A stretch of DNA of 64,000 bases from an uncultured bacterium (GCA_903906425.1 CAIVKH010000193.1:1-64000), one strand, 5' to 3'; counted from the first letter of the stretch, positions 1,421 through 55,949 are shown. A program made the numbers and translations. The notes: generated by a model from the sequence alone, not told the origin.

Positions 1421-1467
1421 TTCCAATGATTGGAAACTGGGGGTCGGCCAACTTCCAATGATTGGAA
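1421..1467. repeat. Paired palindrome locus 1
   Basis: TTCCAATGATTGGAA 1421-1435 and 1453-1467; 32 bp start to start. Confidence 0.95.
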
Positions 1468-1599
1468 AAATTTTGCGGCGCACTTGCGAATCGCTGCATT
1501 GTCGTTTAACGTCTGCGTAAATTCCGCGGGTTTTGTAGTTCGCGGGCATAGTCGCACGGGAGCGCCTGCGGGATGGGAGTAAATCGGAAGGAGTCATCC

Positions 1600-2067
1600 T
1601 TGAAAAAATTAGGCATCCTGTTGGCCTCTGTGCTCGTCGCGGCTTCCGCGATGGCGGGAACGGTCAAGAGTTCGAGTAATTGCGGCTGCGGTATCGGAAC
1701 CATGGCGCTCGGCGAACAGCCGGACACGTTGATTTCGGAACTGGCCGCGACATTCCTCAACGGCATCTGCGGAAACGGAACGTTCGGCATCACGTCCGGT
1801 ACGCTGGATTGCAAACCAACCTCCGCGGTGGCGATGAACTCCCGCGTGAAGGAATATGTGACGGCCAACATTGACCAGCTCGCGCTGGACATGGCCATGG
1901 GTCACGGCGCGTCGCTGAATGCGCTGTGCGATCTCATGAATGTCCCCGCGGGCAAGCGCACCGACATCACCTCGAAGCTGCAAAACAACTTCGACAAGAT
2001 TTTCACGTCGGACAAGATTGGCGCTGACGACATCGTCAAGAACATGGCCTCCGTGTTGAATTCCTGA
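1600..2067 (+). CDS. DUF3015-like secreted protein
   Basis: Signal peptide, SSNCGCGIGTMALG, DUF3015-like. TTG start at 1600 with CGGAAGGAG upstream is preferred over ATG 1573. Confidence 0.75.
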   Translation: MKKLGILLASVLVAASAMAGTVKSSSNCGCGIGTMALGEQPDTLISELAATFLNGICGNGTFGITSGTLDCKPTSAVAMNSRVKEYVTANIDQLALDMAMGHGASLNALCDLMNVPAGKRTDITSKLQNNFDKIFTSDKIGADDIVKNMASVLNS

Positions 2068-2088
2068 GCATTTTTCGAAATGCGATTG

Positions 2089-3990
2089 ATGAAGAACCGC
2101 GGGATGATGACGCATTTCGCGGTTCTTCTTTTTTTGTCCGTCGCCCTCCTTCCCCTGTCCTTCGCCCGCGCGGCCGGCGCCGATGATCTGATCGCGACGG
2201 CGGAGGCGAAGCAGCTTTGGACGAACCGCTACTGGCACACGCTGGTTCATTATGTGCCGACCGTCCTCGGCACCGAGAGCCGCATTGACGATCCGAAATT
2301 CTTCCTCGCGCCGGATGGAAAGAAAAGCCCGCGCGCGGAAATGATCGCGACGTTGCAGGCGTATTTCGCGCCCGTCGGCACGAACGAGCGGACGCATGCG
2401 ATCTACCGTTTCCCCGCGCGGCTGCATTGGCTCAAGCAGGAGTTGAACTGGGACGGCAGCGGCCTGCCGATGCAGGAGGCGCAGAAGTTCCGGCAGGTTT
2501 ATGATTATCTGAAGCCCGCGTCTGTCGCGCTGATTTATCCCGCCGCCTACATGGGCAGCCCCGCCTCGATGTTCGGCCACACGATGGTCGTGTTCGACGC
2601 GAAGGACAAAAACCGGCTGCTCTCGCAGGCGATGACCTACGCGGCGCTGACCGGCCAGGGCTTCGGCCCGCTCTTCGCCTTCGAGGGAATTTTCGGGTTT
2701 TACAAGGGCTACTATTCCGCGATGCCGTACTACGACAAGGTTCAGGAATACACCGCCATCGGCCATCGCGATGTCTGGGAATACGAGCTGAACTTCAACC
2801 AGGAGGAGGTGGACCAGCTTTTCCGCCACGCGTGGGAAGTGCAGGACGTTTTCAGCTACTATTATTTTTTCACCGAGAACTGTTCCTACAATCTGTTTTA
2901 TCTGCTCGATGCCGGGCGGCCCTCGCTGCACACAACCGACTTCAACCGGCCCTTCGTCATTCCGATTGATACGGTCAAGTACATCGACGACCTCGGCCTC
3001 GTGCGCACGAAAACCTACCGGCCATCGCAGGTGACGCAGATCAAATGGCTCGCCGCGCACCTGCCCGATCACGAACGCGACCTCGCGCTGGCCTGTGCGC
3101 GCGGACAGACGAACGCGGCCGACATCGCCGCGGCCATCACGAACCGCGAAGAAAAAATCCGCATGATGGATCTCGCGTCGGAATACACGCAGTTCCTCTA
3201 CACCGACCGCAAACTTGCCGTGGAAGATTACCGCCCGCGATTCCTCAAGGTGCTCAAAATCCGCAGCGCGCTGGGGCAGGGCGATGATGTTGCCGCACTG
3301 TTGCCCGCGCCCGATCATCCCGAGGACGGCCACGCGCCGGCGAAGCTCTCACTCGGCTCCGGCGTGCAGAACGGAGATTATTTTTCATCGCTTTATTTGC
3401 GCCCCGCCTACCACGGCATCCTCGACAACGACGACGGCTTCACGCGCGGCGCGCAGATCGAATTTCTGAATCTCGAATTGCGGTACTATCCCAATCGCGG
3501 CCGCGTCGAATTGCAGAACGTGGATATTGTCGAAGTCCTCTCGCTCGCCCCGCGCGACGCGTTGTTCGATCCGTCGTCGTGGAAAGTCAAAATGGGCCTC
3601 ACGCAATCCGATCGCCACGACGACCAGGACCGGCTCATGGCGCATCTCAACACCGGTGCCGGCGAAACCTGGCGCACCGGCCGCGACGGAATTATTTGCG
3701 CAATGATCGAAGCCGAGCCGCAGCTTGGCCGCGACTTCAAGGCCGATTACGCGATCGGCGCGGGCCCGTCGCTCTGCCTCGTGCAGTCGGTCACCAGATC
3801 GTGGAAGATCGTCGCGCAGGCCCGCGCGCTCTACATGGCCGTCGGCGACCAGCTCTGGGAACAGTGCTACAGCATTGACCAGGATTTCCGCCTCCGCCGC
3901 AACCTCAGCGTCAGCCTCGGCCTGCTGCACGGGCGCATGGACACCACAAACACCGACGAAGCGCAGCTCCGGCTGAACATCTATTTCTGA
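2089..3990 (+). CDS. DUF4105-like (Lnb N-terminal-type) periplasmic/outer-membrane protein
   Basis: Long ORF with signal peptide; GSPASMFGHTMVVFDAKD and FTENCSYNLFYLLD resemble DUF4105; follows the DUF3015-like gene. Confidence 0.75.
   Translation: MKNRGMMTHFAVLLFLSVALLPLSFARAAGADDLIATAEAKQLWTNRYWHTLVHYVPTVLGTESRIDDPKFFLAPDGKKSPRAEMIATLQAYFAPVGTNERTHAIYRFPARLHWLKQELNWDGSGLPMQEAQKFRQVYDYLKPASVALIYPAAYMGSPASMFGHTMVVFDAKDKNRLLSQAMTYAALTGQGFGPLFAFEGIFGFYKGYYSAMPYYDKVQEYTAIGHRDVWEYELNFNQEEVDQLFRHAWEVQDVFSYYYFFTENCSYNLFYLLDAGRPSLHTTDFNRPFVIPIDTVKYIDDLGLVRTKTYRPSQVTQIKWLAAHLPDHERDLALACARGQTNAADIAAAITNREEKIRMMDLASEYTQFLYTDRKLAVEDYRPRFLKVLKIRSALGQGDDVAALLPAPDHPEDGHAPAKLSLGSGVQNGDYFSSLYLRPAYHGILDNDDGFTRGAQIEFLNLELRYYPNRGRVELQNVDIVEVLSLAPRDALFDPSSWKVKMGLTQSDRHDDQDRLMAHLNTGAGETWRTGRDGIICAMIEAEPQLGRDFKADYAIGAGPSLCLVQSVTRSWKIVAQARALYMAVGDQLWEQCYSIDQDFRLRRNLSVSLGLLHGRMDTTNTDEAQLRLNIYF
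2091..2135 (+). terminator. Intrinsic-terminator-like hairpin inside the 5' end of the DUF4105 gene
   Basis: GAAGAACCGCG (2091-2101), 16-nt loop, CGCGGTTCTTC (2118-2128), perfect 11-bp stem, then TTTTTTT (2129-2135). Confidence 0.75.
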
Positions 3991-4000
3991 TCTCCGCATT

Positions 4001-4048
4001 TTCCAATCATTGGAAGACTGCGTTCACGGTTTTCTCCAATGATTGGAA
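4001..4048. repeat. Paired palindrome locus 2
   Basis: TTCCAATCATTGGAA 4001-4015; CTCCAATGATTGGAA 4034-4048; 33 bp. Confidence 0.9.
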
Positions 4049-4201
4049 ACCACGAATGATCACCAAGGGACACGAATGGAGGATCGATGACGATGGCGAA
4101 AGGATTGGTTGCGCGCGGGTTGACGGGGGCGGGGGCTTTGTGGTTAATGGCGGGCCGTTTTTTGTGGCGATGTGTCGATCTGAATCCAGTCGAGGTGTGT
4201 G

Positions 4202-5260
4202 ATGAATTTTGAGCTGTTGAAAAAACTTAGCGAGGCGGCGGGCGTGCCCAGCCGCGAGGAATATTTGCGCGAGATCGTACGGGCGGAGCTGCAGGGGGTC
4301 GTAAAAACCATCGAGGTGGACACGATGGGCAATGTGATCTGTTTCAAGCCGGGCAGCGGGAAGTCGAAGGCGAAGAAGAAGGTGATGCTCGCGGCGCATA
4401 TGGACGAGATCGGTTTTTTGGTGCGGTTCATTGATGACAAGGGTTTCCTGCGGCTGCAGCCGGTGGGCGGGTTCGATCCGCGGCAGTTGTTCGCTCAGCG
4501 GGTGCTGGTGCACGGCCGCGCGGGTGCGCCGCTGCGCGGGGTGCTGACGTATTCGACGAAGCCGACGCATATGCTCACGCCGGAGGAGCAGAAGGCGACG
4601 CCGGTGATCGAAAACTTCTTCGTGGACCTGGGCATGAAGGCCGATGACGTGAAGAAGGTCATCCGGCTGGGCGACATGGTGACGATGGACCGTACGTGCG
4701 AGCTTTGCGGCGGGAACATCGTGGGCAAGTGCATGGACAACCGCGTGGGCGTTTTCGTGATGATCGAGGCGATGAAGGCGGTGGGAAATCATCAGGCGGA
4801 TATTTTTGCGGTGGCGACGACGCAGGAGGAGGTCGGGCTGCGCGGGGCCTCGACGAGCGCCTACGCGATTCATCCGGACGTGGGCGTGGCGCTGGATACG
4901 ACGCTGGCGAATGATTTTCCCGGCATCAGCGACAGCGACCAGATCACGAAGCTCGGCGGGGGCGTGGGGATCAAGATCATGGATGCTTCGTTCATCTGCC
5001 ATCCGAAGCTGGTGGAGCATTTCCGCCAGATCGCCGAGACGGAGAAGATCGCGCACCAGATGGAAGTGCTGCCGCGCGGCGGCACGGACGGCGCGGCGAT
5101 GCAGCGGGCGCGCGGCGGCGTGCCGAGTATCACGCTGAGCGTGCCGACCCGGTACATTCACACGGTGAACGAAATGGTGAACCAGGCGGATGTCGAGGCG
5201 GCGATCACGCTGCTGGCCCGCTTCCTCGAACAGGCGCACGACGGCAACTATGCGCTGTGA
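4202..5260 (+). CDS. M42 family metallopeptidase
   Basis: MLAAHMDEIGFLVRFID, CMDNRVGVFVMIEAM, TTQEEVGLRGA, GGTDGAAMQRARGGVPS: M42 metal/catalytic motifs. Confidence 0.9.
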   Translation: MNFELLKKLSEAAGVPSREEYLREIVRAELQGVVKTIEVDTMGNVICFKPGSGKSKAKKKVMLAAHMDEIGFLVRFIDDKGFLRLQPVGGFDPRQLFAQRVLVHGRAGAPLRGVLTYSTKPTHMLTPEEQKATPVIENFFVDLGMKADDVKKVIRLGDMVTMDRTCELCGGNIVGKCMDNRVGVFVMIEAMKAVGNHQADIFAVATTQEEVGLRGASTSAYAIHPDVGVALDTTLANDFPGISDSDQITKLGGGVGIKIMDASFICHPKLVEHFRQIAETEKIAHQMEVLPRGGTDGAAMQRARGGVPSITLSVPTRYIHTVNEMVNQADVEAAITLLARFLEQAHDGNYAL

Positions 5261-5394
5261 GACGATGCGCCGCAGCGCGGCGCGCGACGGCTCTTTTCTC
5301 TGGACGGCTGAAACGACGTGCCATAGAAACCATGCGCTGGCTGGCGGGTTCTTATGATCGAACGAGTCCATTTCATTTTGCGGCGGCTGGGCGT

Positions 5395-6081
5395 ATGAAG
5401 CTCAGCGTGTTGGTGCCCGTGTTCAACGAGCACGGAACGGTCGCGGAACTTTTGGAGCGCGTGGGCCGCGTGCCGCTCGAAAAGGAAATCGTGATCGTGG
5501 ACGACGCTTCGACGGACGGGACGCGCGAGATCCTGCGCGGCTTCGAGGCGCGCGCCGGCTTCAAGGTTCTCTATCACGAAAAAAACGGCGGCAAGGGCCG
5601 CGCCATCCGCACAGGGCTTGAGGTCGTCACCGGCGATGTGGTCGTCATCCAGGATGCGGACCTCGAATATGACCCGCACGATTTCATCGCGATGATGAAG
5701 CTTTTCACGGAGGGCGGCGCAAAGGCGGTGTTCGGATCGCGGCGGCTGCGCAAGGAGAACAAGCAGTACGCCGGGCCGATTTATTATGCCGGCGGCGTCT
5801 TCCTGTCGTGGGTCACGCGCCTGCTCTACGGCATCCAGATCACCGACGAGCCGACCTGCTACAAGATGGTGGACACGCACCTGCTGCGCTCGCTCGGCCT
5901 GACGTCGGAGCATTTCGAATTCTGCCCGGAGGTGACGGCGAAGCTCGCGCGGCGCGGAGTCAAAATTTTTGAGGTGCCGATCAAGTACATGCCGCGGCAC
6001 AAGAGCGAGGGCAAAAAGATCTGCTGGCGCGATGCGGTCGAGGCCGTCTGGGTGCTCTTGAAATTTCGTTTCGGGAATTGA
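5395..6081 (+). CDS. Family 2 glycosyltransferase (dolichol-phosphate mannosyltransferase-like)
   Basis: MKLSVLVPVFNEHGTVAELLERV, IVDDASTDGT, VIQDADLEYDPHD. Confidence 0.88.
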   Translation: MKLSVLVPVFNEHGTVAELLERVGRVPLEKEIVIVDDASTDGTREILRGFEARAGFKVLYHEKNGGKGRAIRTGLEVVTGDVVVIQDADLEYDPHDFIAMMKLFTEGGAKAVFGSRRLRKENKQYAGPIYYAGGVFLSWVTRLLYGIQITDEPTCYKMVDTHLLRSLGLTSEHFEFCPEVTAKLARRGVKIFEVPIKYMPRHKSEGKKICWRDAVEAVWVLLKFRFGN

Positions 6082-6084
6082 CCG

Positions 6085-8703
6085 ATGCGCCGCTGGGAAA
6101 ATTTTCTGCTGGTCGCGCTCCTCGTGCTCGCCGCGCTGCTGCGCTTCGGCGGGCTGTCGCACGATCTGCACGAGGGGCGGTTGTATCACCCGGACACGGC
6201 GAAGCAGGTCCGCGCGGTGGAATTGTATTATGGGGGGCATTACTTCTGGCACGTCGGCAACAAGGACTACGACGGCTATCCGCTTTTTCACGCACGCATC
6301 GCCGAATGCATTCTCAGGGTAATCGAGCCGGTCCGCAGCGGTGTGTGCGACCTGCTCGGCATTCCGACCCGCGCGGGCGCGCTGGTGACGGACTTCCCGG
6401 TGTACTGGCTCATGCTCACGATGAACGCCGCGCTCTCGACGCTCATCGTGCTCATCGTGTTTCGCGCGGGCCGCGAAAACTTCGGGCCGCTGGCCGGCTG
6501 GGTTGCCGCCGCGCTAATGGCCATCTCGCCGGCCGACATCACCTCGACGCACATGGCCGCCGGCGATGTGACGACCGGATTTTTCGCCGCGCTCTCGCTG
6601 TTCTGGACCTTCCGGGTTTTCCGTCTCGGCCGCTATCGCGATTACGCGCTGGCGGCGGTGTTCGCGACCTTCGCCTTCGCGGCCAAGTATTATGCGGCCA
6701 CCGCCTTCTTCGCGCTGGCGCTCGCGTACATCACGCGCGCCGGCATCACGCGGCCCGCCGCATGGTTTTCGCCCGACGCGCTGCGGCGCATCGGCGTCGC
6801 CGCCATCGCGGCGATCATCGCGCTGCTCGTGGCCATTCCTGCGCTGCTCACGGACTTCAGGGCCGAACTGGCCGACGTCTGGGTCGCGCTGATTCACAGC
6901 ACGCAGCGTTATCCCGCGTCGCTGATCGGGGCGGGGCAGTGGAAGCGCTACTGTTTTTCCATGCGCGTGAACCTTCCCGATCTGATTCGCACGATCAGCC
7001 CGCTCACGCTTGCGGCCGTCGCACTCTCCTTCGCGGGCCGCCTCCGTCGCGACGCGCGATTCTGGATTCTGCTGATCGGCCCGGTCCTCTACGTTTTTCT
7101 CGCCGTCGGCAGCCGCGGCCTCGTGAATCCGATCTACCACATTGACATCACGCCGCCGCTTTTCCTGCCCGTCGCCTTCTTCGGCTCGTGGGTCTTCGAA
7201 ATCACCGGCCGCGTTCGCGCGCTGTCGCGCGTGCTTTACTGCGCGGCCACCGCCTCCGCGCTCGGGCTCTTTGCCGCCGACGCCGCCCGCGAAGTTTTCT
7301 TCGCCTGGCACATGGACACGCGGCGCGTGTGCGACACGTGGGTCAACGCGAACGTCCCTCACATCTTCCTCTCGCACACCGGGCGCTACACCCTGCGCTG
7401 GGATGCCGAGGATCATCCCGATGTCAACGTGCGGGGCATGGTCTTCATAAGCTCGGCCCTCGATCCGGTGCGCGTGCCCGATTACGCGATTCCGCTCAAG
7501 CAATTCGCGCTCGAAGAGACGCCGCTGACCCAGTTCAGAAACATCGCGGAAAAGGTTTCGGTCGTCTGCCCGGCGCTCCTGCGCGCGGGCTTCAGCCTGC
7601 CGGTCAGCCAGCGCTGGCCGTCGCAAGCGGAGAACGCCTTCATCATGGACAACGGCGCGGAATTCGTCCGCAGCGAAAAATGCTTCATCCTGAACCACGG
7701 TGAGGGGCTGGTGCGATGGATCGTGGAGAGCAAGCCGCTGGCCGAGGTCTGGATCGCGGTGAAAACTTCCGCGACCTCCTCGGCCGTCCGCATACAATTT
7801 GAAGGCCAGCACAAAAAGTTTCACTTCGACCAGGACACGGCGGCCGTGCTTCACATCGAAAAGCCGCGGCCGGAATTTCCGACGGGCGACGGCCGCTTCT
7901 TCTACCGCCTCGAAATTGACGCGCCCACGGCCCGGATGAAAATCATGCTGGCGACGGACCTGCTCGATGCCGGCCGCCTGTTTGCCCGCCTCGGCCGCGA
8001 TGCCGATGCCGCGCCGCTGCTGGCGAAGGGCGCGACGGCCGCGAACGATCCCGCCGCCGCCGCGCAGGCGATCATCTCCGCGAGCCGCGCCGGCATCGCG
8101 CTTCCGCGCGACGACTCCGCGCGCCTCGAAAAACTTGCCGCGAAGGTTTTGACGGCAACCAACGCCTATGCAGTCTTCGCCGTCTTCGGCATCCATCCGG
8201 ACTATCTCGACGCGCTGCCGTTTCTCGGCGTCGGCACCGCGCAAATGGGTGCAAATGGATTCCGTTCGGCCCCGCTGCCGTTCGCGGACGAAACCGGGGA
8301 GTCGCGCGAACTGATTGTCACCACCAACGCCAGGGCTCGCCCGGACGGAAATTTCTACGGCGTGTGGACCGGCCTGCTGATGCTCGACCCGGGCCCGTAC
8401 CAGGCGAAGCTGCTGGCGCGCGCGCCGTCGGGCGCGTCGCACGGTCAGACGCTGAAGCTCACCGTGCGCGACGAAAACGGAAAAGCCATCGCCGAACGCC
8501 CGCTCGAAATTCCGCCGCTCGACGCGCGCGCCTACACCGTAATTCCATTCGATCTCGAAGTGCCCGCCGGCGTCGCAGGCGTCATCATCACATTGCGCAG
8601 CGACGAGGCGCCGGACCTCGCCGTCGGCGGCATCGAAATCCGGCCCGACGTTGTCGCCAACGTCATCGCCCTCGGCAAGGCCCTCGCCCCCGCGAAACCC
8701 TGA
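6085..8703 (+). CDS. Polytopic GT-C (family 39-like) membrane glycosyltransferase
   Basis: 872-aa ORF, N-terminal TM segments, RLYHPDTAKQVRAVELYYGGHYFWHVGN; large C-terminal soluble part. Confidence 0.75.
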   Translation: MRRWENFLLVALLVLAALLRFGGLSHDLHEGRLYHPDTAKQVRAVELYYGGHYFWHVGNKDYDGYPLFHARIAECILRVIEPVRSGVCDLLGIPTRAGALVTDFPVYWLMLTMNAALSTLIVLIVFRAGRENFGPLAGWVAAALMAISPADITSTHMAAGDVTTGFFAALSLFWTFRVFRLGRYRDYALAAVFATFAFAAKYYAATAFFALALAYITRAGITRPAAWFSPDALRRIGVAAIAAIIALLVAIPALLTDFRAELADVWVALIHSTQRYPASLIGAGQWKRYCFSMRVNLPDLIRTISPLTLAAVALSFAGRLRRDARFWILLIGPVLYVFLAVGSRGLVNPIYHIDITPPLFLPVAFFGSWVFEITGRVRALSRVLYCAATASALGLFAADAAREVFFAWHMDTRRVCDTWVNANVPHIFLSHTGRYTLRWDAEDHPDVNVRGMVFISSALDPVRVPDYAIPLKQFALEETPLTQFRNIAEKVSVVCPALLRAGFSLPVSQRWPSQAENAFIMDNGAEFVRSEKCFILNHGEGLVRWIVESKPLAEVWIAVKTSATSSAVRIQFEGQHKKFHFDQDTAAVLHIEKPRPEFPTGDGRFFYRLEIDAPTARMKIMLATDLLDAGRLFARLGRDADAAPLLAKGATAANDPAAAAQAIISASRAGIALPRDDSARLEKLAAKVLTATNAYAVFAVFGIHPDYLDALPFLGVGTAQMGANGFRSAPLPFADETGESRELIVTTNARARPDGNFYGVWTGLLMLDPGPYQAKLLARAPSGASHGQTLKLTVRDENGKAIAERPLEIPPLDARAYTVIPFDLEVPAGVAGVIITLRSDEAPDLAVGGIEIRPDVVANVIALGKALAPAKP

Positions 8704-8718
8704 GCGCGCACCGTCCGT

Positions 8719-8765
8719 TTCCAATGATTGGAACTTCCGCCGGCACTTTTTTCCAATAATTGGAA
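8719..8765. repeat. Paired palindrome locus 3
   Basis: TTCCAATGATTGGAA 8719-8733; TTCCAATAATTGGAA 8751-8765; 32 bp. Confidence 0.95.
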
Positions 8766-8807
8766 GAAGAGGCTTGCCCAATAGAAATATCTTTTTATTT
8801 TCAGGGC

Positions 8808-9302
8808 ATGAAAAGGAACTTCATCATCACGATCGGTGCCGGAATCTTTCTGGCGTGTCTGCTGGCGGGCTGCGAAGGGAACTCAAATAGCAGCAAGGAT
8901 TCCTCGTCTCTCCCCAACGACAAGGATGAGTTGAACATTTCGGCGGCCGTCATGCTCGGCCCGCACAAGGCGCAAGTCGCCCAGAACGCGACCATCACCC
9001 GCGAGATGAACTCGTCCGATGTCAACGGTTCAATGGTGAGCTACTCGTTTGAGCAACTGAACTGGCCCGTTTCGGAGGGATGCGATGGCGGCTGCTATGT
9101 GTTCTGGGAACTGAACGGCCAGGCCGTTGGCGGCTTGTTTGACGCTCACGGAGCCGGACAGACGGTCAAGTCTTTGGAAAATATCTATGGCGGCTATCTC
9201 GATGGCAAGCGGCCGGCCAAAGGCCAGACGGTCTATTTCGCATTCGTCAATCTGGATGGCACCGAGCGGACGAACGTCAAGAAGAGCGTGAATCCCTGGT
9301 AG
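8808..9302 (+). CDS. Lipoprotein, paralog of 61063..61650
   Basis: MKRNFIITIGAGIFLACLLAGC lipobox; C-terminus VFWELNGQAVGGLFDAHGAGQTVKSLENIYGGYLDGKRP. Confidence 0.75.
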   Translation: MKRNFIITIGAGIFLACLLAGCEGNSNSSKDSSSLPNDKDELNISAAVMLGPHKAQVAQNATITREMNSSDVNGSMVSYSFEQLNWPVSEGCDGGCYVFWELNGQAVGGLFDAHGAGQTVKSLENIYGGYLDGKRPAKGQTVYFAFVNLDGTERTNVKKSVNPW

Positions 9303-9370
9303 CGATTCGCCCGCCTGAGTCACCGGCAAGACCCGGAGGCGGGGCGGCGACATCCACATGAATGAAGAAG

Positions 9371-9400: not shown

Positions 9401-9477
9401 GGCGTCGCCCTTCGCCCCGCGAAAATGCCGCTGTGGCCCGCCGTCCGCGCTGACAGAATTTCCACCGGCCGGAAAAC

Positions 9478-9525
9478 TTCCAATGATTGGAAATTTTCGG
9501 CCGCGGTCTTTTTCAATCATTGGAA
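9478..9525. repeat. Paired palindrome locus 4
   Basis: TTCCAATGATTGGAA 9478-9492; TTTCAATCATTGGAA 9511-9525; 33 bp. Confidence 0.92.
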
Positions 9526-11593: not shown

Positions 11594-11640
11594 TTCCAAT
11601 CATTGGAAGTTTTCCTGCCCGGCATTTCCAATCATTGGAA
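11594..11640. repeat. Paired palindrome locus 5
   Basis: TTCCAATCATTGGAA 11594-11608 and 11626-11640; between convergent genes; 32 bp. Confidence 0.95.
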
Positions 11641-12495: not shown

Positions 12496-14499
12496 TCATT
12501 TGACCCGAATCAACACGACGCCGTGCCGTGCGACTTCGGCTGCATATCCGTCCGATGAATCGCCGATGTCACGCTGCCGCCACAAATCACGGACCGAGTG
12601 TTTGCCCGTCAGGCCCAACTCCGTCCATGAAACTTTGACCTCCGAAGCCTTTCGTCCCCGATTGAAAAGCCCCACGGCCTTGCTTCCGTCAGCCAAATCT
12701 CTGGCCCAGACTTCAACAGAACCGTTCTGACTGATGCGCCCCGCCGGTCTGCCGAGCGGGTCCTGATTCACGGCGATCACTTCATCGTTTTCCAAAAGGC
12801 CGAGCGTGAAATCGTCGAGTTGAGTCATGTCGCAACCGATCAGCAGCGCCGAACTCAGCAGGCACCACAAACTGATATGCGTGTACTGCTCGCTTGGCGT
12901 GAGCTTCGTCGGATGCAGATTCCCCCATCCGACTTTGCCGACGACGAGCATATCGGGGTCGTTCCAATGGCCGGGGCCGGCAAACTTTTCGTGGCCGTTC
13001 TGACCGAAGCCGATTCCGGCCATGCTGCCCCACGTATCGGTGATGTCGCCTGTCGTGCGCCAGCAATTGCCGCCGGCTTCCTCGCCCCATTCCCACACGT
13101 TGCCCATGCCGTACTGGCAGAAACTAAAAAGAATGTCGCGGTTCTGATGGTTCAACGCGGAACGCATGACCACATAAGGTCTGATCTGATCAAGCAACCC
13201 CTTCGGCTTGCCAGCACTCTCAAATTTCTTCATCGGCGAAAAATCAACCGGACGGGTGCGCTTGGATTCGAGGCTGGGATTGTAGGAACACCAGTCGTAT
13301 TTGAGGTAGTCGAAGCCCCATTCGGCGTATTGTGCCGCATCGAGTTCCTCGTGGTCAAAACTGGCCACGCAGCCGCCGCAGGTCCACGGGCCAGGCGACG
13401 AATACAGGCCCGCTTTCAAGCCGAGGCCATGGATATAATCAACCAACCCCTTCATGTCTTTGAACCGTGGATTCGTCAGAATCTTCCCGTCGGCGTCGCG
13501 ATGAGGGCCCTGCAATGTCGGATCTTTCGAATCGCGATGGCATTCCCAGAAATCATCAATGTTGATGTACTGCCAGCCGTGATCAATCAGCCCGCTTTTC
13601 ACCATCGCATCGGCGGCGGATTTTACGCGGTCGGCTGTGACTGCCGCCGCAAAACAATTCCAACTATTCCAACCCATCGGCGGTGTCAGCGCGATCTTGT
13701 CGCCGACGACAATTTTCAATTCGCCGCGCGCCGTGCCGAGCGAATTTTTCGCACGAAGCGATGCGACATGTTCGCCGCGCGCACTGACAGTACCGGAAAT
13801 AATTCCGCTGTTTTCGTCAAGATGAAGACCATCCGGCAATCCGCTGGCCGCAAATTGAATTGGCTTCTCGCCACTCGCCGCAATTTTGAAAAGGAACGGA
13901 TGGCCGGGCCGCACGCCCGTAATTTGCGCCCCGTTAATCCGCGGCTCGCGCGGCGTGGGCGGCGTGAGCCGGATATATTCTTCCTTCTGTACCGCGCCGG
14001 GTGTCGTGCTGGGCTTCTGGGCGTGGAATTCAATTTTCGCGTCGCACCAATCGGCGTGATCAAAGTCAATGCCGTCACCGGCATCAGTGACTTCCAGGTC
14101 GAGTTGCTTCACATCCTTCAGCGAAACATCAACGGCCTTCGCGGGCTGTTTGCCTTTCATCACACCGCTGCGCCACACTTCTTTTCCATCGGCAACCATA
14201 ATGAATTCGACCGAGCCGCGCTCATGAACTTCGCCATCCACGCCGACTTTTGCGGTGAACCGGTCTGCCGTTCCGTGAAGATCAATCTGCATCGAGCTTT
14301 CCGCGTGCGTACCCAGACCGTGTTCGAATTGCTCGCCGCCGACAGACAACTTCGCCTTGTCAACCGAATGGTCTCGCTGCGGCTGTCCATAGCCTTGCAT
14401 CATGTCGCCGAAGCCCAGTTCAGCGATTGAAATTGTTTCGGCGTTTGCGGCGAACGCACCGGCAGCGACCAGACAGAGAAAAGACAGATAACGATTCAT
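12496..14499 (-). CDS. NPCBM-domain GH27 alpha-galactosidase-like enzyme
   Basis: MGWNSWNCFAAAV, YLKYDWCSYN (nucleophile region), TTGDITDTWGSM, GPGHWNDPDMLVVG; N-terminal NPCBM-like HGLGTHAESSMQIDL. Confidence 0.9.
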   Translation of the reverse strand: MNRYLSFLCLVAAGAFAANAETISIAELGFGDMMQGYGQPQRDHSVDKAKLSVGGEQFEHGLGTHAESSMQIDLHGTADRFTAKVGVDGEVHERGSVEFIMVADGKEVWRSGVMKGKQPAKAVDVSLKDVKQLDLEVTDAGDGIDFDHADWCDAKIEFHAQKPSTTPGAVQKEEYIRLTPPTPREPRINGAQITGVRPGHPFLFKIAASGEKPIQFAASGLPDGLHLDENSGIISGTVSARGEHVASLRAKNSLGTARGELKIVVGDKIALTPPMGWNSWNCFAAAVTADRVKSAADAMVKSGLIDHGWQYINIDDFWECHRDSKDPTLQGPHRDADGKILTNPRFKDMKGLVDYIHGLGLKAGLYSSPGPWTCGGCVASFDHEELDAAQYAEWGFDYLKYDWCSYNPSLESKRTRPVDFSPMKKFESAGKPKGLLDQIRPYVVMRSALNHQNRDILFSFCQYGMGNVWEWGEEAGGNCWRTTGDITDTWGSMAGIGFGQNGHEKFAGPGHWNDPDMLVVGKVGWGNLHPTKLTPSEQYTHISLWCLLSSALLIGCDMTQLDDFTLGLLENDEVIAVNQDPLGRPAGRISQNGSVEVWARDLADGSKAVGLFNRGRKASEVKVSWTELGLTGKHSVRDLWRQRDIGDSSDGYAAEVARHGVVLIRVK

Positions 14500-18207: not shown

Positions 18208-18255
18208 TTCCAATCATTGGAAAAATGCGCAGCCGGTGATTTCCAATGATTGGAA
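18208..18255. repeat. Paired palindrome locus 6
   Basis: TTCCAATCATTGGAA 18208-18222; TTCCAATGATTGGAA 18241-18255; 33 bp; between divergent genes. Confidence 0.95.
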
Positions 18256-21202: not shown

Positions 21203-21249
21203 TTCCAATGATTGGAAAGTTGCCGCGCGGTGACTTCCAATGATTGGAA
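21203..21249. repeat. Paired palindrome locus 7
   Basis: TTCCAATGATTGGAA 21203-21217 and 21235-21249; 32 bp; between divergent genes. Confidence 0.95.
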
Positions 21250-24696: not shown

Positions 24697-24743
24697 TGCC
24701 AATCATTGGAAATTTGCGCCTTCGCGACTTCCAATGATTGGCA
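24697..24743. repeat. Paired palindrome locus 8 (complementary arm changes)
   Basis: TGCCAATCATTGGAA 24697-24711; TTCCAATGATTGGCA 24729-24743; exact reverse complements; 32 bp. Confidence 0.93.
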
Positions 24744-27248: not shown

Positions 27249-27327
27249 TTCCAATCATTGGAACTTTGCGTCGGGTATTTTTCCAATGATTGGAAAAGAC
27301 GGCCGCGCCAACTTCCAATGATTGGAA
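27249..27327. repeat. Palindrome locus 9: three units
   Basis: TTCCAATCATTGGAA 27249-27263; TTCCAATGATTGGAA 27281-27295 and 27313-27327; 32 + 32 bp. Confidence 0.97.
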
Positions 27328-32390: not shown

Positions 32391-32437
32391 TTCCAATCAT
32401 TGGAAGTTATCGCGGCGCAAATTTCCAATCATTGGAG
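32391..32437. repeat. Paired palindrome locus 10
   Basis: TTCCAATCATTGGAA 32391-32405; TTCCAATCATTGGAG 32423-32437; 32 bp; 1 bp from the SNF2 stop codon. Confidence 0.94.
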
Positions 32438-38613: not shown

Positions 38614-38661
38614 TTCCGATGATTGGAAAAGACCGGCCGCGAAAACTTCCAACCATTGGAA
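38614..38661. repeat. Paired palindrome locus 11 (diverged)
   Basis: TTCCGATGATTGGAA 38614-38628; TTCCAACCATTGGAA 38647-38661; 33 bp. Confidence 0.85.
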
Positions 38662-39427: not shown

Positions 39428-39474
39428 TTCCAATGATTGGAAATGACCGCGCCGCTGACTTCCAATCATTGGAA
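39428..39474. repeat. Paired palindrome locus 12
   Basis: TTCCAATGATTGGAA 39428-39442; TTCCAATCATTGGAA 39460-39474; 32 bp. Confidence 0.95.
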
Positions 39475-42573: not shown

Positions 42574-42620
42574 TTCCAATGATTGGAAACCACCGGCCCG
42601 CAAGTTTCCAATCATTGGAA
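42574..42620. repeat. Paired palindrome locus 13
   Basis: TTCCAATGATTGGAA 42574-42588; TTCCAATCATTGGAA 42606-42620; 32 bp. Confidence 0.95.
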
Positions 42621-46428: not shown

Positions 46429-46475
46429 TTCCAATGATTGGAAGTTTGCGGGTCGGAAGTTTCCAATGATTGGAA
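46429..46475. repeat. Paired palindrome locus 14
   Basis: TTCCAATGATTGGAA 46429-46443 and 46461-46475; 32 bp. Confidence 0.95.
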
Positions 46476-47671: not shown

Positions 47672-48264
47672 TGAAGACCAAAATTCTTGGACTCGCCGCC
47701 GCCCTCGCCGCGCTGCTGCTCAACAGCTGCGCCGGCTACAAGCTCGGTTCGATGCTGCCCCCGGACATCCAGACGGTGTACGTGCCGACCTTCATCAACA
47801 AAACCAAGGAACCGCTGATCGAAATTGACACGACGCAAAAGGCCATCCAGGAAATCCAGCGCGACGGTTCGCTCAAGGTCGCCTCCAAGGAATCCGCCGA
47901 CGCGATTCTCCAGGTCACGCTCACCGACTACTCGCTCACGCCCGTGCGCTACGACACGCAGCACACCACGCAGACCAAGGAATACCGCCTCTGGCTCACC
48001 GCCAACCTCGTGCTCAAGCGCGCCAAAGACGACAAGGTCATCGTGGACCGCCCGATGGTCCGCGGCCAGGCCGTGTTCGAAGTCCTCGGCGATCTCACCT
48101 CGTCGAAACTCATCGCGCTGCCACTCGCCGCGCAGGACCTCGCCCGCAACGTCATCGCCACCTGCGTCGAGGAATGGCCGTCCAAGGAACCCGCGCCGGC
48201 GACGCCCGCATCGCCCGTAACGCCAGGCCACGTTTCACCCGCGCCGGTGCGGACCAGTCCGTAA
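47668..48264 (+). CDS. lptE: LptE-like LPS-assembly lipoprotein
   Basis: LLLNSCAGYKLGSMLPPDIQTVYVPTFINKTKEP; Pro/Thr-rich C-terminal tail. Confidence 0.82.
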   Translation: MMKTKILGLAAALAALLLNSCAGYKLGSMLPPDIQTVYVPTFINKTKEPLIEIDTTQKAIQEIQRDGSLKVASKESADAILQVTLTDYSLTPVRYDTQHTTQTKEYRLWLTANLVLKRAKDDKVIVDRPMVRGQAVFEVLGDLTSSKLIALPLAAQDLARNVIATCVEEWPSKEPAPATPASPVTPGHVSPAPVRTSP

Positions 48265-48265
48265 T

Positions 48266-48312
48266 TTCCAATCATTGGAAACCAGCGCGCCGCAGACTTC
48301 CAATGATTGGAA
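48266..48312. repeat. Paired palindrome locus 15
   Basis: TTCCAATCATTGGAA 48266-48280; TTCCAATGATTGGAA 48298-48312; 32 bp; 1 bp after the lptE stop. Confidence 0.95.
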
Positions 48313-48366
48313 AAAAGCGGCGCGCGGTCGAAAACCGGCCCGGCGTCGCGTAGGTTTGCGAGCGTG

Positions 48367-49368: not shown

Positions 49369-49389
49369 CACCGCGCCGGGCGCGACAAA

Positions 49390-50346: not shown

Positions 50347-51197
50347 GACTCGCCCACTTTGATTTCCATGCCTTCGCGCACAAGCGCGGCCCACGGCCAC
50401 GCCCTGTGGACTTCCACATCGAGCGCCACAAGCGATTCATCGCTTCGCGACGGAGCATGATGCGTGACGAGCAATTTCTTCGCGCAGGATTCCTGCGCGA
50501 CGCGAATGCAATCCTGCCAAGTGCTGTGGCCCCAGCCCTTGAATTCCGCATATTCGTTGTCGCAATAATGTCCGTCCATCAGCAGCAGCGACACCGGCGA
50601 CGGCTCGCGGCACAGCCGCAAAAAATGCGCGCGCTCCTCTTCGTTGGATTCGCCCCACTCCATGTCCGTCGCGATCACACAGGATGCGCCGGATGCCGGC
50701 TCATCAATTCGATATGCGGTCGAGCCGTCGGGATGATGCAACCCGCACCACCGGATTTGCAGCCCGCCAAAATTTCTTGGCGCGACGGAATTGGAACCGC
50801 GCAGCGTTGTGAACTGGATCCGCGATTTCAGATCTTCGACCTGGAGCGGCCAGAACGGCCGGTGCATCAGGCGCGGAATCACATCGCCCACCAGATGTCC
50901 GCCGCGCTTCGGCGATGCCATTTCGATGTTCCATCGCGGGCTGTAAATCAGCCCCAGCGACGGCAGCCCCGAGACATGATCGAGGTGATAATGTGTGAAC
51001 AGCATCAGCAGCGAAGAAATTTCGCGCTCGCCATCGAGGCGAAGGCCGAGCGGCCGCGCGCCGGTGCCCGCGTCCACCAGTACGCGCTCGCCGCGCGCAC
51101 CCTCGATCAGAAACGCCGTCGTCTCCCCGCCATATTTCATGAACTCCGGCTGCGCGACCGGCGACGTCCCGCGGCAACCGCCCACAATCAGTTTCAT
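50343..51197 (-). CDS. MBL-fold metallohydrolase
   Basis: MLFTHYHLDHVSGL, LLMDGHYCDNEYAEFKGWGHST, LLVTHHAPSRSD. Confidence 0.87.
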   Translation of the reverse strand: MKLIVGGCRGTSPVAQPEFMKYGGETTAFLIEGARGERVLVDAGTGARPLGLRLDGEREISSLLMLFTHYHLDHVSGLPSLGLIYSPRWNIEMASPKRGGHLVGDVIPRLMHRPFWPLQVEDLKSRIQFTTLRGSNSVAPRNFGGLQIRWCGLHHPDGSTAYRIDEPASGASCVIATDMEWGESNEEERAHFLRLCREPSPVSLLLMDGHYCDNEYAEFKGWGHSTWQDCIRVAQESCAKKLLVTHHAPSRSDESLVALDVEVHRAWPWAALVREGMEIKVGES

Positions 51198-51242
51198 AAC
51201 CGCCTCAAAATTTGATTCCATCCTCGCGGAGAAGAAAGCTTT

Positions 51243-51289
51243 TTCCAATCATTGGAAACCACCGCCCGGCAAATTTCCAATCATTGGAA
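51243..51289. repeat. Paired palindrome locus 16
   Basis: TTCCAATCATTGGAA 51243-51257 and 51275-51289; 32 bp. Confidence 0.95.
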
Positions 51290-51346
51290 AAGACCGCCGG
51301 CGAATCCGCGCCGAGCCACGGCAGCGCAGTCCGCGAAAATTCGCGG

Positions 51347-53458
51347 CTAGCCCTTCTCGGTCAGATTCCAGATTCCGTCCCAGTCCGCGAGCCTGCCGTC
51401 GCGAAGCTCGGCGCAGCGCGCGGCATATTTCTCGGACAGTTGATCGTCCTGGATGGCCGCAAACAGGTCGTGCGCCCCGGCCCACTTCTTCTCGCGGATC
51501 AGCTGCATGGCCCTCGAATGGGTTTCAAATCGCGGTGGTATCGGCTCGCCGGACAGGCCGAGCGGCTGGAAGACGCGCACCGGCGTCGCGCGGCCGACCA
51601 CGCGGATCAGCCCGATTTCACGGCCCGGAACCGAACCGTTCAATTGCTGCCACGTGGACTCTGCAACCATGATGTACGTGCCAAACGCCTTGTTCGCGCC
51701 TTCCAGCCGCGATGCCAGATTCGCCGCGTCGCCGAGCATCGTGTAGTTGAAACGCTGCCGCGATCCCATGTTGCCGACGATGACTTCGCCGCTGTTCAGC
51801 CCGATGCGCATGCGCATCGGAAGGCCGGCGGCGCGCCCCTCAAATTCCGCGCGGCGCTCGTCGAGTTTTCGCTGGCAGCGGATCGTCGCGCGCACCGCCC
51901 GCAGCGCATGATCCGCCTGCGACATCGGCGCGTTCCAAAATGCGACGATCGCATCGCCGATGAATTTGTCCACCGTGCCGCCTTCCTCGAAAATTATATC
52001 GCACGCATCGGAGAGCACGTCGTTCATCAGCGCGGTCAAAACCGGCGGCTCGAGTTTTTCGGAGAAAGTCGAGAATCCCTTGAGATCGGAAAAGAACATC
52101 GTGAGTTCGCGCTTTTCGCCGCCGAGTTGAAGTCTGTCAGGATTGGCGAGCATTTGTTCGATCACGTCGCCGCTGAGGTACTGGCGAAACGCTGATTTGA
52201 TGAAGCGCTTTTGTTTGCCTTCGGTCGCGTAGCTCAGAATCACCGCGCCGAGCATCGAGAATCCGCCAGACATCCACGTGAAAACCATCGGCCACCAAAG
52301 CCCGCCGGAATACGCGCCGAAACCGATCGCAAGCGGAACGAGCATGAAACCGGAAAATACGCCGGCGACTTGCGGACCGTTCCGGCAAAAAAGAATCGCA
52401 AGCGCGCCGGAAATAGCGAGCAAGAGGGCCACCGCCGCGACGAGCGGACGCGGCGCATCGCGAAGAAAATCGCCTTCGAGCAAATTGTCCAGAAATGTCG
52501 CGTGAACTTCGACGCCAGGATAATCGCCGCCCGCCGGTGTCGTCTTGAGATCCTTGAGGCCGGGCGCGCTGACGCCAAAGAAGACATAGCAGTCTTTCAG
52601 CTCGGCCGGATCAACAACCGGTTTCTTTCCATCCACGATTCGCAATTCGGACTGGATGATCGCGGCGGCCGGATATTTGTGATGCGTTCCGGTCGGACCG
52701 CGGAAGCGGAGCAACGCTCGTCCCTGACTGTCGAGCGCGATGCGCGTTCCGCCAACCTGCATCACGCCGTTTTCAATTTTGATTTCGCGGTCTTTCGGAT
52801 CGCGCGCGGCGAGCCACGAGGCCAGCCCGAGGGATGGCACCGTCTGGCCATCGAAAATTCGGAACGGCGTTGCGCGGCGATAAACTCCGTCATCATCCGG
52901 TTCATCTTTCACACTCGCCAGCATCGCCGCATTCGTTGCGACGGACGGAACAGGAAATGTCGCACCGGGTTCATTGGCTGGAAAAGTCTCCGCTCCCGAA
53001 ATCTTCCAGACCGGCCTGGGAATATTCGCGGTCCAGTTCGTCGTCTGCTTCGCCTGTTTCCCCATGAAGAACACGGCGACAAAATCCTTCTTCTCGCCAA
53101 TCTTTGCGCCGAAAGTTTGATCGTCTTCCACGCCTGTCAGCGACGGTTCGGAATAAAGCATGTCGAACGCGATGACCTTCGCGCCGGCGCGCCGGCAAAA
53201 ATCCAACACCGGATTGTAGGCCTGCCGCATCCACGGCCAGGGAAGCGAATTTTCTCTTGCAGCCCAGTCGAGGCTCTCCTGATCAACAACGATGACTTTG
53301 ATCTTTTCCGTGGCAGGCGACGGTTTCCACATTGCGTGAACCCGCCACATCCACGGCGTGGATTCAAAACGGTCAAGCAAACCCGACAGCCAGAGCGCCG
53401 CAACGAGGAGCGTGGCGGCGAATCCGAGAATCAGTGATTGTGAAATCTTTTTTCGCAT
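51347..53458 (-). CDS. CHASE2-domain adenylate/guanylate cyclase
   Basis: CHASE2-like N-terminus (VIVVDQESLDWAAR...AKVIAFDMLYSEPS), TMs, cyclase LTMFFSDLKGFSTFSEKL, VDKFIGDAIVAFWNAP, VGNMGSRQRFNYTMLGDAANLASRLE. Confidence 0.92.
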   Translation of the reverse strand: MRKKISQSLILGFAATLLVAALWLSGLLDRFESTPWMWRVHAMWKPSPATEKIKVIVVDQESLDWAARENSLPWPWMRQAYNPVLDFCRRAGAKVIAFDMLYSEPSLTGVEDDQTFGAKIGEKKDFVAVFFMGKQAKQTTNWTANIPRPVWKISGAETFPANEPGATFPVPSVATNAAMLASVKDEPDDDGVYRRATPFRIFDGQTVPSLGLASWLAARDPKDREIKIENGVMQVGGTRIALDSQGRALLRFRGPTGTHHKYPAAAIIQSELRIVDGKKPVVDPAELKDCYVFFGVSAPGLKDLKTTPAGGDYPGVEVHATFLDNLLEGDFLRDAPRPLVAAVALLLAISGALAILFCRNGPQVAGVFSGFMLVPLAIGFGAYSGGLWWPMVFTWMSGGFSMLGAVILSYATEGKQKRFIKSAFRQYLSGDVIEQMLANPDRLQLGGEKRELTMFFSDLKGFSTFSEKLEPPVLTALMNDVLSDACDIIFEEGGTVDKFIGDAIVAFWNAPMSQADHALRAVRATIRCQRKLDERRAEFEGRAAGLPMRMRIGLNSGEVIVGNMGSRQRFNYTMLGDAANLASRLEGANKAFGTYIMVAESTWQQLNGSVPGREIGLIRVVGRATPVRVFQPLGLSGEPIPPRFETHSRAMQLIREKKWAGAHDLFAAIQDDQLSEKYAARCAELRDGRLADWDGIWNLTEKG

Positions 53459-53526
53459 CGCGCTTTCGTTGTAGCGCCGCCGTGAGGCGGTTCGGGGCCG
53501 ACGCCATCACGGGCGCGCTACGCAGA

Positions 53527-54456
53527 TCAGACGCCCGCCATCGCCGCGGCGAAACGCTGTTGGCGCGCGGCAGGCGCGGGCGCGGCGGCTGCGTTGCCGA
53601 TGATCGAACGCAAATCCTTGATGCGATCACCAGGCGGCGGATGTGTCTTGCCGAATCCGGCTTCGGGTTTGATCTTCGTGCTCATGTTCTGCAACACGGA
53701 AACCAACGCGTTCGGATCGTAGCCAAGCCGCGACATGATTTTGACGGCGACTTTGTCCGCATCGCGCTCCTGACCGCGCGCGTAGCCGGAGGTGATGAGC
53801 TTCTTCGAAATGTCGCTGATGCTGCCTTCAAACGCAGTCGTCAAATCTTTCAGTTGTTCTCCACCTAGACTCTTTCCAGCCTCGGCGGTGAGGATCGTGA
53901 ATGCGGATGTCCACCGGCTGTTACTGATCGCATTGATGGCATCTTTGTCCTGCACATGACCGACTTCATGTGCGAGCACGGCGGCAAGTTCATCCTCGCT
54001 GCGGCACAGTTTCAGCATTCCGCGCGAGACGAAAATAAAACCGGCGGGCGCGGCAAAGGCGTTGATTTCATCCGTATCCATGATGAGGAAATGATAGCCC
54101 TTGAACGTTTCGGGCCGGTCCGATGCGGCGGCGATGGTCTGGCCGACTTCGTTCAGATACATCGTCGCGGCTTCATTGTTGTAGGGCTTGTATTGTTGCA
54201 GGATCGTCGCGCCGACCGCGCGGCCCACGTAATATTCCTGCTCCGGCGTGATCTGTTCCATCGCCTTGCCAAACGCTTCGCCGGTTTTGACGATGGATTT
54301 CGCCTGGTCTTGATTGATTGTACCAGTGGCCACGCCGACCGCCGCGACGCCTTGGGAAATTTGCGCACAGCCGCTGATCAAAATTCCGATGGATGCGGCG
54401 AGCGTCGCGATGATCACGAAGCAAACGAGATTTTGATTCGAAGGAAGCTTATTCAT
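53527..54456 (-). CDS. M48-family metalloprotease lipoprotein
   Basis: LISGC lipobox; DELAAVLAHEVGHVQDKDAI; ARGQERDADKVAVKIM. Confidence 0.9.
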   Translation of the reverse strand: MNKLPSNQNLVCFVIIATLAASIGILISGCAQISQGVAAVGVATGTINQDQAKSIVKTGEAFGKAMEQITPEQEYYVGRAVGATILQQYKPYNNEAATMYLNEVGQTIAAASDRPETFKGYHFLIMDTDEINAFAAPAGFIFVSRGMLKLCRSEDELAAVLAHEVGHVQDKDAINAISNSRWTSAFTILTAEAGKSLGGEQLKDLTTAFEGSISDISKKLITSGYARGQERDADKVAVKIMSRLGYDPNALVSVLQNMSTKIKPEAGFGKTHPPPGDRIKDLRSIIGNAAAAPAPAARQQRFAAAMAGV

Positions 54457-54932
54457 CAGTTGCCTCCCTTCAAACCGCCGGCGCGGAGGAACTGCACCAT
54501 CTGCGATTCGCTGACTTTGATTTTTTCCATGTAGTCAATCCACTTGAAGTCGATGTTCGGATTGTTCGCTTTGAACTGGCCCTCGACCTGAGAATTGAAT
54601 CCCTTGCCGGCGAGCGCGAGTTCTTCGCCGGACGCGGTCTTGCTGACATCGGTTGATCCGGCTTGCAGCACAATCTTCTTCGTCGAAAGCGATGCCGTCT
54701 GCGTCCAGCCCGTCGCGCCGCTTGCGGTGCGGACCTGCGTCCAAGCGCCCTGCTCGCCGACGACGGTAACTTGATCGCCATACGTCAATGTCGCGAGGGT
54801 CTGCGCGAACGGTCCGGGACTCGCGCGAATGACCGCTTTTTCGCTCTGCACGCTCATCGTGCCGGCCATCGCCGCGCCGGCCCAACTCGTGAGCAAAAGC
54901 GCGAACAGAATTATTTTTATGTTTCGATTCAT
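54456..54932 (-). CDS. Secreted SH3-like domain protein
   Basis: Signal peptide; AVIRASPGPFAQTLATLTYGDQVTVVGEQGAWTQVRTASGATGWTQTASL. Confidence 0.75.
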   Translation of the reverse strand: MNRNIKIILFALLLTSWAGAAMAGTMSVQSEKAVIRASPGPFAQTLATLTYGDQVTVVGEQGAWTQVRTASGATGWTQTASLSTKKIVLQAGSTDVSKTASGEELALAGKGFNSQVEGQFKANNPNIDFKWIDYMEKIKVSESQMVQFLRAGGLKGGN

Positions 54933-54977
54933 TTTCCACCTTTTGAAGATCGTCATTTGGACGCCGCAAAATATCGG

Positions 54978-55949
54978 TTATTCAGTCACCGGTTCAACAG
55001 ACTTCTTGATTTGCTCGAACAGCGCGGCGATCTGGCCGCGAAGCTCCGCGGACTTCGCTTCATCCGCAGCCTTGAACGCTTCATCAATGCAGGCGAGCGC
55101 GGCGACGCGGTCGTTCTGCCCGAAATAACTTCGCGCTGCGCGATAAAACCGGTCGGCGGCATCGGCGGATTTTTTCGCGGCCTGCCAGGCCGCGCCGGCG
55201 GCGCGGAGGTTGTCGGCCATTTCGCGAATATTGCCGGCAGTGCGCCAGCCGTCCGCGGCCTGATCAAATTTTCCGGCAGCTTTTCCCGCGTCGGATTTCT
55301 GCAACAGCTTTCCTTCGGCGGCAGCGACGCGGGCGTTCATCGTGGCGCTGTGACTTTTTTCGGCGCGCCGCTGCGCCATTTTCAGCAACCGCTGAGCTTC
55401 GTCCAAATCGCCGTGCTGAACCGCGAGATCAAGCTGGACGAGGAGCACGTCGAGTTGCGCGACATCGGATTTTGCGGCGGCGAAAGCGTTCGATGCGAGC
55501 GCCGTTGCCTCCGCGGCCTGGCCGAGCGCAGACGCGGTCATCGCCTGCAAAACGAGAACCGGCTCGCGGTCCATTCCGGCGCGTTCGAATTCGCGTCCGG
55601 CTTCGACGAGCAGCGGCGACGCGGACGAGGGATGGCCGGAGCGCAGGTGACACGCGGCGGCGTTGTAGGCATTGCGCGCGATTTCCGCGCTGTCGTCGAG
55701 CGCACGGGCGCGGGCCAGCGCAAGTTCGTAACATTTCGCCGCGCGCAAAAAGTTTCCGCTCTGGTAAGCGGCCTGCGCCGATTTCACGCTCTGCGCAATC
55801 TGCGCGTCGGTGACGGGGCCGGTCGCCTCGAATTTCTTTACGGTTCCGCAGGCGGCGATCAGAAAAATGGCTGCGAGAGTTCCAATGATTGGAAATGTCC
55901 GCGACGCAAATTTCCAATGATTGGAAAATTCTTTCGCGGCGCGGTTCAT
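54978..55949 (-). CDS. TPR-containing lipoprotein; signal peptide overlaps a palindrome pair
   Basis: MNRAAKEFSNHWKFASRTFPIIGTLAAIFLIAACG; lipobox LIAAC; ATGA overlap with mlaD. Confidence 0.8.
   Translation of the reverse strand: MNRAAKEFSNHWKFASRTFPIIGTLAAIFLIAACGTVKKFEATGPVTDAQIAQSVKSAQAAYQSGNFLRAAKCYELALARARALDDSAEIARNAYNAAACHLRSGHPSSASPLLVEAGREFERAGMDREPVLVLQAMTASALGQAAEATALASNAFAAAKSDVAQLDVLLVQLDLAVQHGDLDEAQRLLKMAQRRAEKSHSATMNARVAAAEGKLLQKSDAGKAAGKFDQAADGWRTAGNIREMADNLRAAGAAWQAAKKSADAADRFYRAARSYFGQNDRVAALACIDEAFKAADEAKSAELRGQIAALFEQIKKSVEPVTE
55880..55926. repeat. Paired palindrome locus 17 (intragenic)
   Basis: TTCCAATGATTGGAA 55880-55894 and 55912-55926; 32 bp; inside 54978..55949. 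Confidence 0.95.

Follow-up and report, generated by a model that had tools for sequence, protein, structure and literature searches.

Introduction

To our knowledge, uptake sequences (DUS and USS) are known so far from only two proteobacterial families, the Neisseriaceae and the Pasteurellaceae. They are short and occur in hundreds to thousands of near-identical copies which are enriched in intergenic regions, with some inside genes, are relatively evenly spaced and fall into lineage dialects; both the receptor (ComP) and uptake itself have been demonstrated. For the USS of Haemophilus, a relatively even distribution is the expected result of uptake-driven accumulation, and closely placed pairs of USS add no uptake (PMC7811141). 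Karlin et al. interpreted the even distribution of USS in terms of replication, repair or compaction (PMC1939737). The dialects of DUS share a conserved core, and dyad-symmetric DUS pairs have been reported in Simonsiella (PMC3630211).

Other short palindromic sequences are comparable in some respects. REP elements and BIMEs associated with RAYT form many short palindromic intergenic copies, but are folded, strand-asymmetric and tied to RAYT. The sites of Noc, SlmA and MatP are short palindromes scattered over the chromosome and bound by dimers of known proteins; they number only tens of copies per genome and are not paired in helical phase. Operators of the Lrp/AsnC family are 15-bp palindromes, each bound by one dimer, with centres two or three helical turns apart (PMC4046817, PMC2995911). 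Such operators are confined to few target regions, are degenerate and are unevenly spread over the chromosome.

Here we describe arrays of a 15-bp palindrome from an uncultured bacterium. With DUS and USS, these arrays share over-representation, intergenic enrichment, even spacing and dialects with a conserved core, but they consist of helically phased palindrome pairs and are known from sequence alone. They resemble the Noc, SlmA and MatP sites in being scattered and the Lrp/AsnC operators in geometry, and show none of the three distinguishing properties of REP and BIME.

Phased palindrome arrays in the window and its source genome

The window, that is, the whole 64-kb stretch of DNA that was analysed (CAIVKH010000193.1:1-64000), comes from a 6.66-Mb assembly of 383 contigs (GCA_903906425.1; G000). 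Based on the titles of pair-bearing public records and on kinship labels, the host is taken as an uncultured member of the class Kiritimatiellia in the phylum Verrucomicrobiota. The public records that share the pair are mostly Kiritimatiellae or Pontiellaceae by title; the pair is also present in records labelled Lentisphaerae, Verrucomicrobia and Spartobacteria, and in single, possibly misbinned contigs labelled Firmicutes or Bacteroidales. Genes were called with a codon-usage caller built for this analysis.

The original prediction, which counted 35 units of the palindrome TTCCAATNATTGGAA at 17 loci of the window, was accurate to the coordinate, as was its account of the start-to-start spacing, which is 32 bp in 14 intervals and 33 bp in 4. 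With up to three mismatches allowed, the window contains 36 matches to the pattern compared to 2.0 ± 1.3 expected; the 36th (at 13658) carries three mismatches and is at chance level. Intergenic arrays of two units with a spacing of 32 bp are located at 8719-8765, 39428-39474, 42574-42620, 46429-46475 and 51243-51289, as well as at 32391-32437, with one mismatch, and at 24697-24743, with the mirrored mismatches TGCC..GGCA. Two further intergenic pairs, at 4001-4048 and 9478-9525, have a spacing of 33 bp and one mismatch each, and the intergenic array at 27249-27327 consists of three units spaced by 32 and 32 bp. One pair (11594-11640; 32 bp) is flanked by convergent genes, whereas those at 21203-21249 (32 bp), 18208-18255 (33 bp; sharing a few bases with the start called at 18250) and 38614-38661 (33 bp; two mismatches) lie between divergent genes, the last of these as called. 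The pair at 48266-48312 (32 bp) directly follows the stop at 48264, and a few of its bases overlap the start called at 48307. The pair at 1421-1467 (32 bp) falls in the 5′ part of an ORF on the minus strand (221-1549), the start of which is probably over-called. Finally, the pair at 55880-55926 (32 bp) occupies the first codons of a CDS on the minus strand (54978-55949), which there encode the N-terminal portion of what resembles a lipoprotein signal peptide (MNRAAKEFSNHWKFASRTFPIIGTLAAIFLIAACG); direct reading places an ATG at 55949 with GGAGG upstream.

The arrays are real, class-wide and not assignable to any described element. Genome-wide, we identified 1,026 perfect pairs in the 6.66 Mb of G000, compared to 0 for the reversed pattern, so that copies extend well beyond the window. 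The detailed anatomy was derived from 1.03 Mb of G000, including the window, which contains 264 clean arrays (223 pairs, 29 triples and 12 quadruples), or ~1,700 when extrapolated to the genome. The spacing preference also is genome-wide: in the 1.03 Mb, spacings below 60 bp are 31 (6 cases), 32 (268), 33 (51), 20-22 (8) and 56 bp (1). Single-unit matches number 37, including 17 with 0-2 mismatches. The arrays matched no characterised element: an Rfam scan of the window gave no hit, and the literature searched offered nothing relevant to the unit, to palindromic or repeated sequences of Kiritimatiellae or to uptake sequences of Verrucomicrobia.

The helical phasing originally proposed extends to several families, in which 515 of the 521 intervals between neighbouring units correspond to two or three helical turns: 448 measure 30-33 bp and 67 measure 20-23 bp, compared to 4 of 24-29 bp and none of 34-45 bp. 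Most of the loci outside G000 were found through pairs about 30-34 bp apart, so that their three-turn peak is partly selected; neither the two-turn peak nor the gap at 24-29 bp depends on this selection. The phase is maintained in longer arrays, such as an 11-unit array in G021, with steps of 31/32 bp, and the elements of the f26 family, which have a common 22/31/31/30/22 layout.

Sequence anatomy of the arrays

Within the 32-bp pairs, mismatches to the unit concentrate at the outer and central positions, and only 8 of 182 affect CCA/TGG, a nearly invariant core. The arms are nearly constant, as originally described, but the spacers, originally described as differing in sequence, do not vary freely and follow an oriented consensus, RTTTGCGnnCCGnWWT (EM gain of 129 log units compared to about 20 in column-shuffled data). 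The outer flanks resemble the spacer consensus, which in both places is weaker than that of the palindrome; apart from it, the flanks and most spacers of G000 display no recent copying.

The centre bases of paired units are independent (p = 0.34), no covariation of the spacer as a stem was seen in the 32-bp pairs, and only 6 of the 182 mismatches are matched by a compensating change in the other unit, with 8 compensated within the same unit. Lack of hairpin covariation combined with a nearly invariant CCA/TGG core suggests that the arrays are recognised by a protein as double-stranded DNA rather than acting as a folded strand. The helical phasing points in the same direction and, together with the avoidance of CCA/TGG by mismatches, argues for the dimeric binding protein that had been postulated for the window.

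Genomic context and even spacing

In the 1.03 Mb of G000, 201 of the 242 placeable arrays are intergenic, compared to about 36 expected from random positions. The placement between genes inferred from the window is thus the rule but not without exception: 41 arrays reside in called CDS, 25 of them within 66 bp of the called start, and the array at 1421-1467 lies within the probably over-extended ORF. Among intergenic regions of at least 60 bp, we found 37 arrays in 50 convergent, 122 in 254 codirectional and 42 in 79 divergent regions. The density is highest between convergent genes, the median distance of arrays from a 3′ end is 29 bp, and the orientation of the elements is unrelated to the direction of the genes (33 same, 29 opposite).

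Intergenic regions with more than one array are very rare. The mean distance between G000 arrays is 3.4 kb, and the coefficient of variation of the inter-array distances is 0.55, compared to 0.87 ± 0.06 expected if intergenic regions were filled independently while their occupancy by type and length was kept the same; intervals shorter than 1.5 kb account for 8.6% compared to the expected 31%. The occupancy of intergenic regions changes with the distance to another array, from 0 of 4 below 500 bp through 21-26% at 0.5-1.5 kb to 65-77% at 2-4 kb. In G013, a genome from another family with the dialect TTCCAAGSCTTGGAA, the coefficient of variation is 0.50 compared to 0.86 ± 0.12 expected, and none of 500 simulations gave a value as low. 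The arrays of both families repel one another along the chromosome. Furthermore, arrays inside genes occur where there is no other array nearby.

In the part of G000 that was read, the two longest stretches without arrays are located on contig 8 (L020:1-13514 and L020:18496 to L021:15190). They lie on either side of an MmeI-like restriction-methylase gene and contain genes for AAA ATPases, SNF2/helicase proteins and an FGE-sulfatase, which makes them look like an acquired or defence island. An array-poor, phage- or plasmid-like region of contig 54 (L072:889-18285) encodes a DNA polymerase of family A together with an AAA_25 ATPase, and its second half has a GC content of 0.53 compared to about 0.60. 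The remaining longest array-free stretches of G000 consist of long genes or ordinary core genes.

Distribution and dialects

Exact pairs are present in 25 of the 288 genomes of the class. Pairs of TTCCAANNNTTGGAA are found in more class members and in only 1 of 257 genomes from the other classes of the phylum, whereas pairs of the general form TTCC-N7-GGAA are present in 115 of the 288 class genomes and 52 of the 113 genera, with the corresponding control giving 1-4 hits in a handful of genomes. The arrays come in lineage dialects and are restricted, within the phylum, to the class. The copy number within the class ranges from 0 to above 1,300 and varies 15-20-fold even within genera (e.g. 101 and 6, or 82 and 4).

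Among 2.9 million viral contigs, the exact pair was found in 1. This sole match (L213:3200-3580; IMGVR_UViG_3300035698_006241) is in a small ORF with an HTH-like start, on a contig that may be host DNA.

In low-copy genomes, the genes beside or between arrays (D12 methylase, AAA_14/DUF4143 ATPases, CbiM and others) include no recurrent partner. In G184, two four-unit arrays in mirrored arrangement enclose the genes of a D12 adenine methylase and of a DUF6996/6997/7226 protein (L123:1862-4898), the latter probably being the restriction partner of the methylase. Separately, G000 encodes a 1,304-aa protein consisting of 17 Helicase-associated (HA) domain matches (L040:702-4616).

Origin of the arrays

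Arrays inside conserved genes provide some insight into how they arise. In ffh (L013), the GTPase domain contains two perfect units, and alignment to the solved Ffh reveals one extra residue; in ugd (L047), the array region aligns without a gap. These alignments indicate that both arrays evolved via substitution or equal-length replacement, without insertion. The array in hsdR, whose units carry 2 and 1 mismatches, is in a domain that, by length comparison, is nearly unchanged. By contrast with ffh and ugd, in which the origin in place resembles that of DUS and USS, length changed at three loci: there are 13 extra residues at the array in trpF and 10 in an amidohydrolase, suggesting that insertion or local duplication may also occur, and in f26, one G086 array is absent as a block from G068 (96% identity), although two others are kept in place. 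No target-site duplication was seen at arrays. In G103, two arrays 1.5 kb apart (L124:6947-7022 and 8459-8534) share an almost identical 30-bp upstream flank and represent a local duplication that included the array.

A permease gene carries an array at the same codons in G086, G068, G077 and G154. The spacings are 22/31/30/22 in G086 and G068 and 22/30/22 in G077 and G154, whereas the palindrome is TTCCAATNATTGGAA in the former two and TTCCACNNNGTGGAA-like in the latter two. As judged from these four genomes, position and geometry are conserved across genera, whereas the palindrome has changed.

Association with ComEC

We examined ComEC because uptake sequences fit the arrays best among the known kinds of sites; the choice was made once the even spacing had pointed to uptake, and the difference in length was noticed in the output rather than predicted. 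ComEC is encoded in G000 and in 263 of the 288 class genomes. Among the best 150 matches, the ComEC open frames, measured around the Competence domain and in some cases shortened by contig ends, have a median length of 813 aa where the genome contains 10 or more pairs, compared to 550 aa where it contains no more than 1. The ratio of long to short frames in the same two groups is 47/20 and 9/68, respectively (Fisher p about 3e-13, a statistic that ignores shared ancestry). Within these 150 matches, families split nearly cleanly, with ComEC being mostly long in array-bearing families and short in most array-free ones; the exceptions are f2 (long, no arrays) and f16 and f30 (shorter, arrays). 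Given the restriction to the best 150 matches, the contig ends and shared ancestry, we regard the association as a lead and not as proof.

Short ComEC proteins of Kiritimatiellia end after the Competence domain, whereas the extra C-terminal part of the long ones gives a weak match to the structurally solved beta-lactamase-like domain of ComEC (E = 7.5e-4). Long variants with a divergent C-terminal beta-lactamase-like domain are encoded at L209, L210 and L211. On contig 1 of the two-contig genome G018 (f12), the Competence match (1409676-1410500) contains 3 in-frame TAG codons and a Y1_Tnp match (1893839-1894171) contains 1, so that TAG reassignment is possible in this lineage.

Possible functions of the arrays

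The explanation that we favour, if tentatively, is that the arrays are uptake-signal-like sites of a putative dimeric, duplex-reading protein that would have accumulated genome-wide by biased DNA uptake. A putative receptor of the competence machinery would favour fragments containing the phased palindrome pair; recombination of imported fragments into the chromosome would push near-matches to the preferred form, and the sites would accumulate where the sequence is tolerant, in intergenic DNA first and in permissive codons second. Because one site per fragment would be enough, even spacing would follow, and if the specificity of the receptor shifted, the sites would follow it, giving rise to dialects. 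We infer the existence of the receptor, its role in uptake and the competence of these bacteria.

This explanation is supported by the copy number and the class-wide dialects, by the formation in place of the ffh and ugd arrays, by the repulsion and even spacing in G000 and G013, by the permease locus, where the position was kept while the palindrome changed, and by the association with long ComEC. It also is consistent with the near absence of arrays from viral contigs and with the wide differences in counts within genera, unlike what would be expected of an essential chromatin site. It is weakened by the fact that the known DUS and USS are not helically phased palindrome pairs, by the exceptions to the ComEC association (f2, f16 and f30) and its disregard of phylogeny, and by the gain or loss of one f26 array as a block. 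Moreover, given that close USS pairs add no uptake, multi-unit arrays (up to 11 units) are unexpected from uptake alone, and even spacing would be required by an architectural protein too.

Such a protein is the subject of the next explanation, which we consider possible but rather unlikely: an abundant cytoplasmic dimer, nucleoid-associated or condensin-related, would bind phased pairs cooperatively and anchor or bridge DNA about every 3-5 kb, with selection maintaining both the sites and their spacing. Phasing at two and three turns, even spacing with repulsion and the permease locus, with its position and geometry kept under a changed palindrome, are explained equally well by architecture and by uptake. 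Multi-unit arrays and the occurrence of arrays within genes that lack a nearby array also fit an architectural role, as does the precedent of the Lrp family, with its 15-bp palindromic sites at two or three turns (PMC4046817, PMC2995911). However, a copy number that spans 0 to more than 1,300 across the class and changes rapidly within genera speaks against an essential role in architecture, and Lrp/AsnC proteins are poor candidates for the binder. Although the geometry of the arrays is of the Lrp/AsnC type, the presence of the family does not track them: it is encoded in 240 of the 288 genomes, including those of the array-free families f10, f24 and f31, its loci lack consistent arrays, and its HTH has no obvious dialect signature. 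A broader proposition, that class-wide, quasi-periodic phased arrays read by a co-evolving protein organise the chromosome, with the recognised sequence switching concertedly at fixed positions, would amount to a sequence-encoded ruler without known counterpart and strikes us as somewhat improbable.

Less plausible still is a mobile repeat of the REP or MITE type whose arms would be maintained by transposase specificity; a REP-like element was one of the alternatives raised originally. The arrays are indeed multi-copy, intergenic and patchily distributed, the f26 elements share a layout, G068 lacks one array as a block at the same site, and the extra residues in trpF and the amidohydrolase are located at the array. 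However, there is no target-site duplication, the ffh and ugd arrays are not insertions, the flanks and most spacers of G000 display no recent copying beyond the consensus, and the arrays repel one another. Furthermore, the number of Y1_Tnp matches does not track the arrays, as exemplified by 3 in G000 (1,026 pairs) compared to 14 in G002, a genome of the same family without perfect pairs. We consider it improbable, too, and more so, that the arrays are operators of a single global transcription regulator. Dimer-like sites in phased, mostly intergenic pairs would suit a regulator, but as many arrays are near 3′ ends and in convergent regions, there rarely is more than one per intergenic region, and where arrays are placed depends on how far away the next one is; moreover, a pair contains about 54 bits, whereas about 12 would suffice for 1,700 places in 6.66 Mb. 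The weakest candidate is a transcription terminator or other folded RNA, such as the transcript hairpin with a 15-bp stem and a 17-nt loop raised originally, which would fit the proximity to 3′ ends and the high density between convergent genes but is very improbable given the independent centre bases, the spacer without covariation, the few compensated mismatches, the presence of arrays within CDS and in divergent regions as readily as in codirectional ones, and an orientation unrelated to the genes.

Implications

If the arrays are part of an architecture system, they would be a rare case of anchor positions written in the sequence every few kilobases. If, instead, the uptake-signal explanation is correct, a class of Verrucomicrobiota would have an independent, palindromic and phased version of uptake sequences, so that sequence-marked 'self' DNA would have arisen again. 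Such a version would suggest that natural transformation takes place in a group of mostly uncultured bacteria, and the series of dialects would let the receptor be sought by co-variation.
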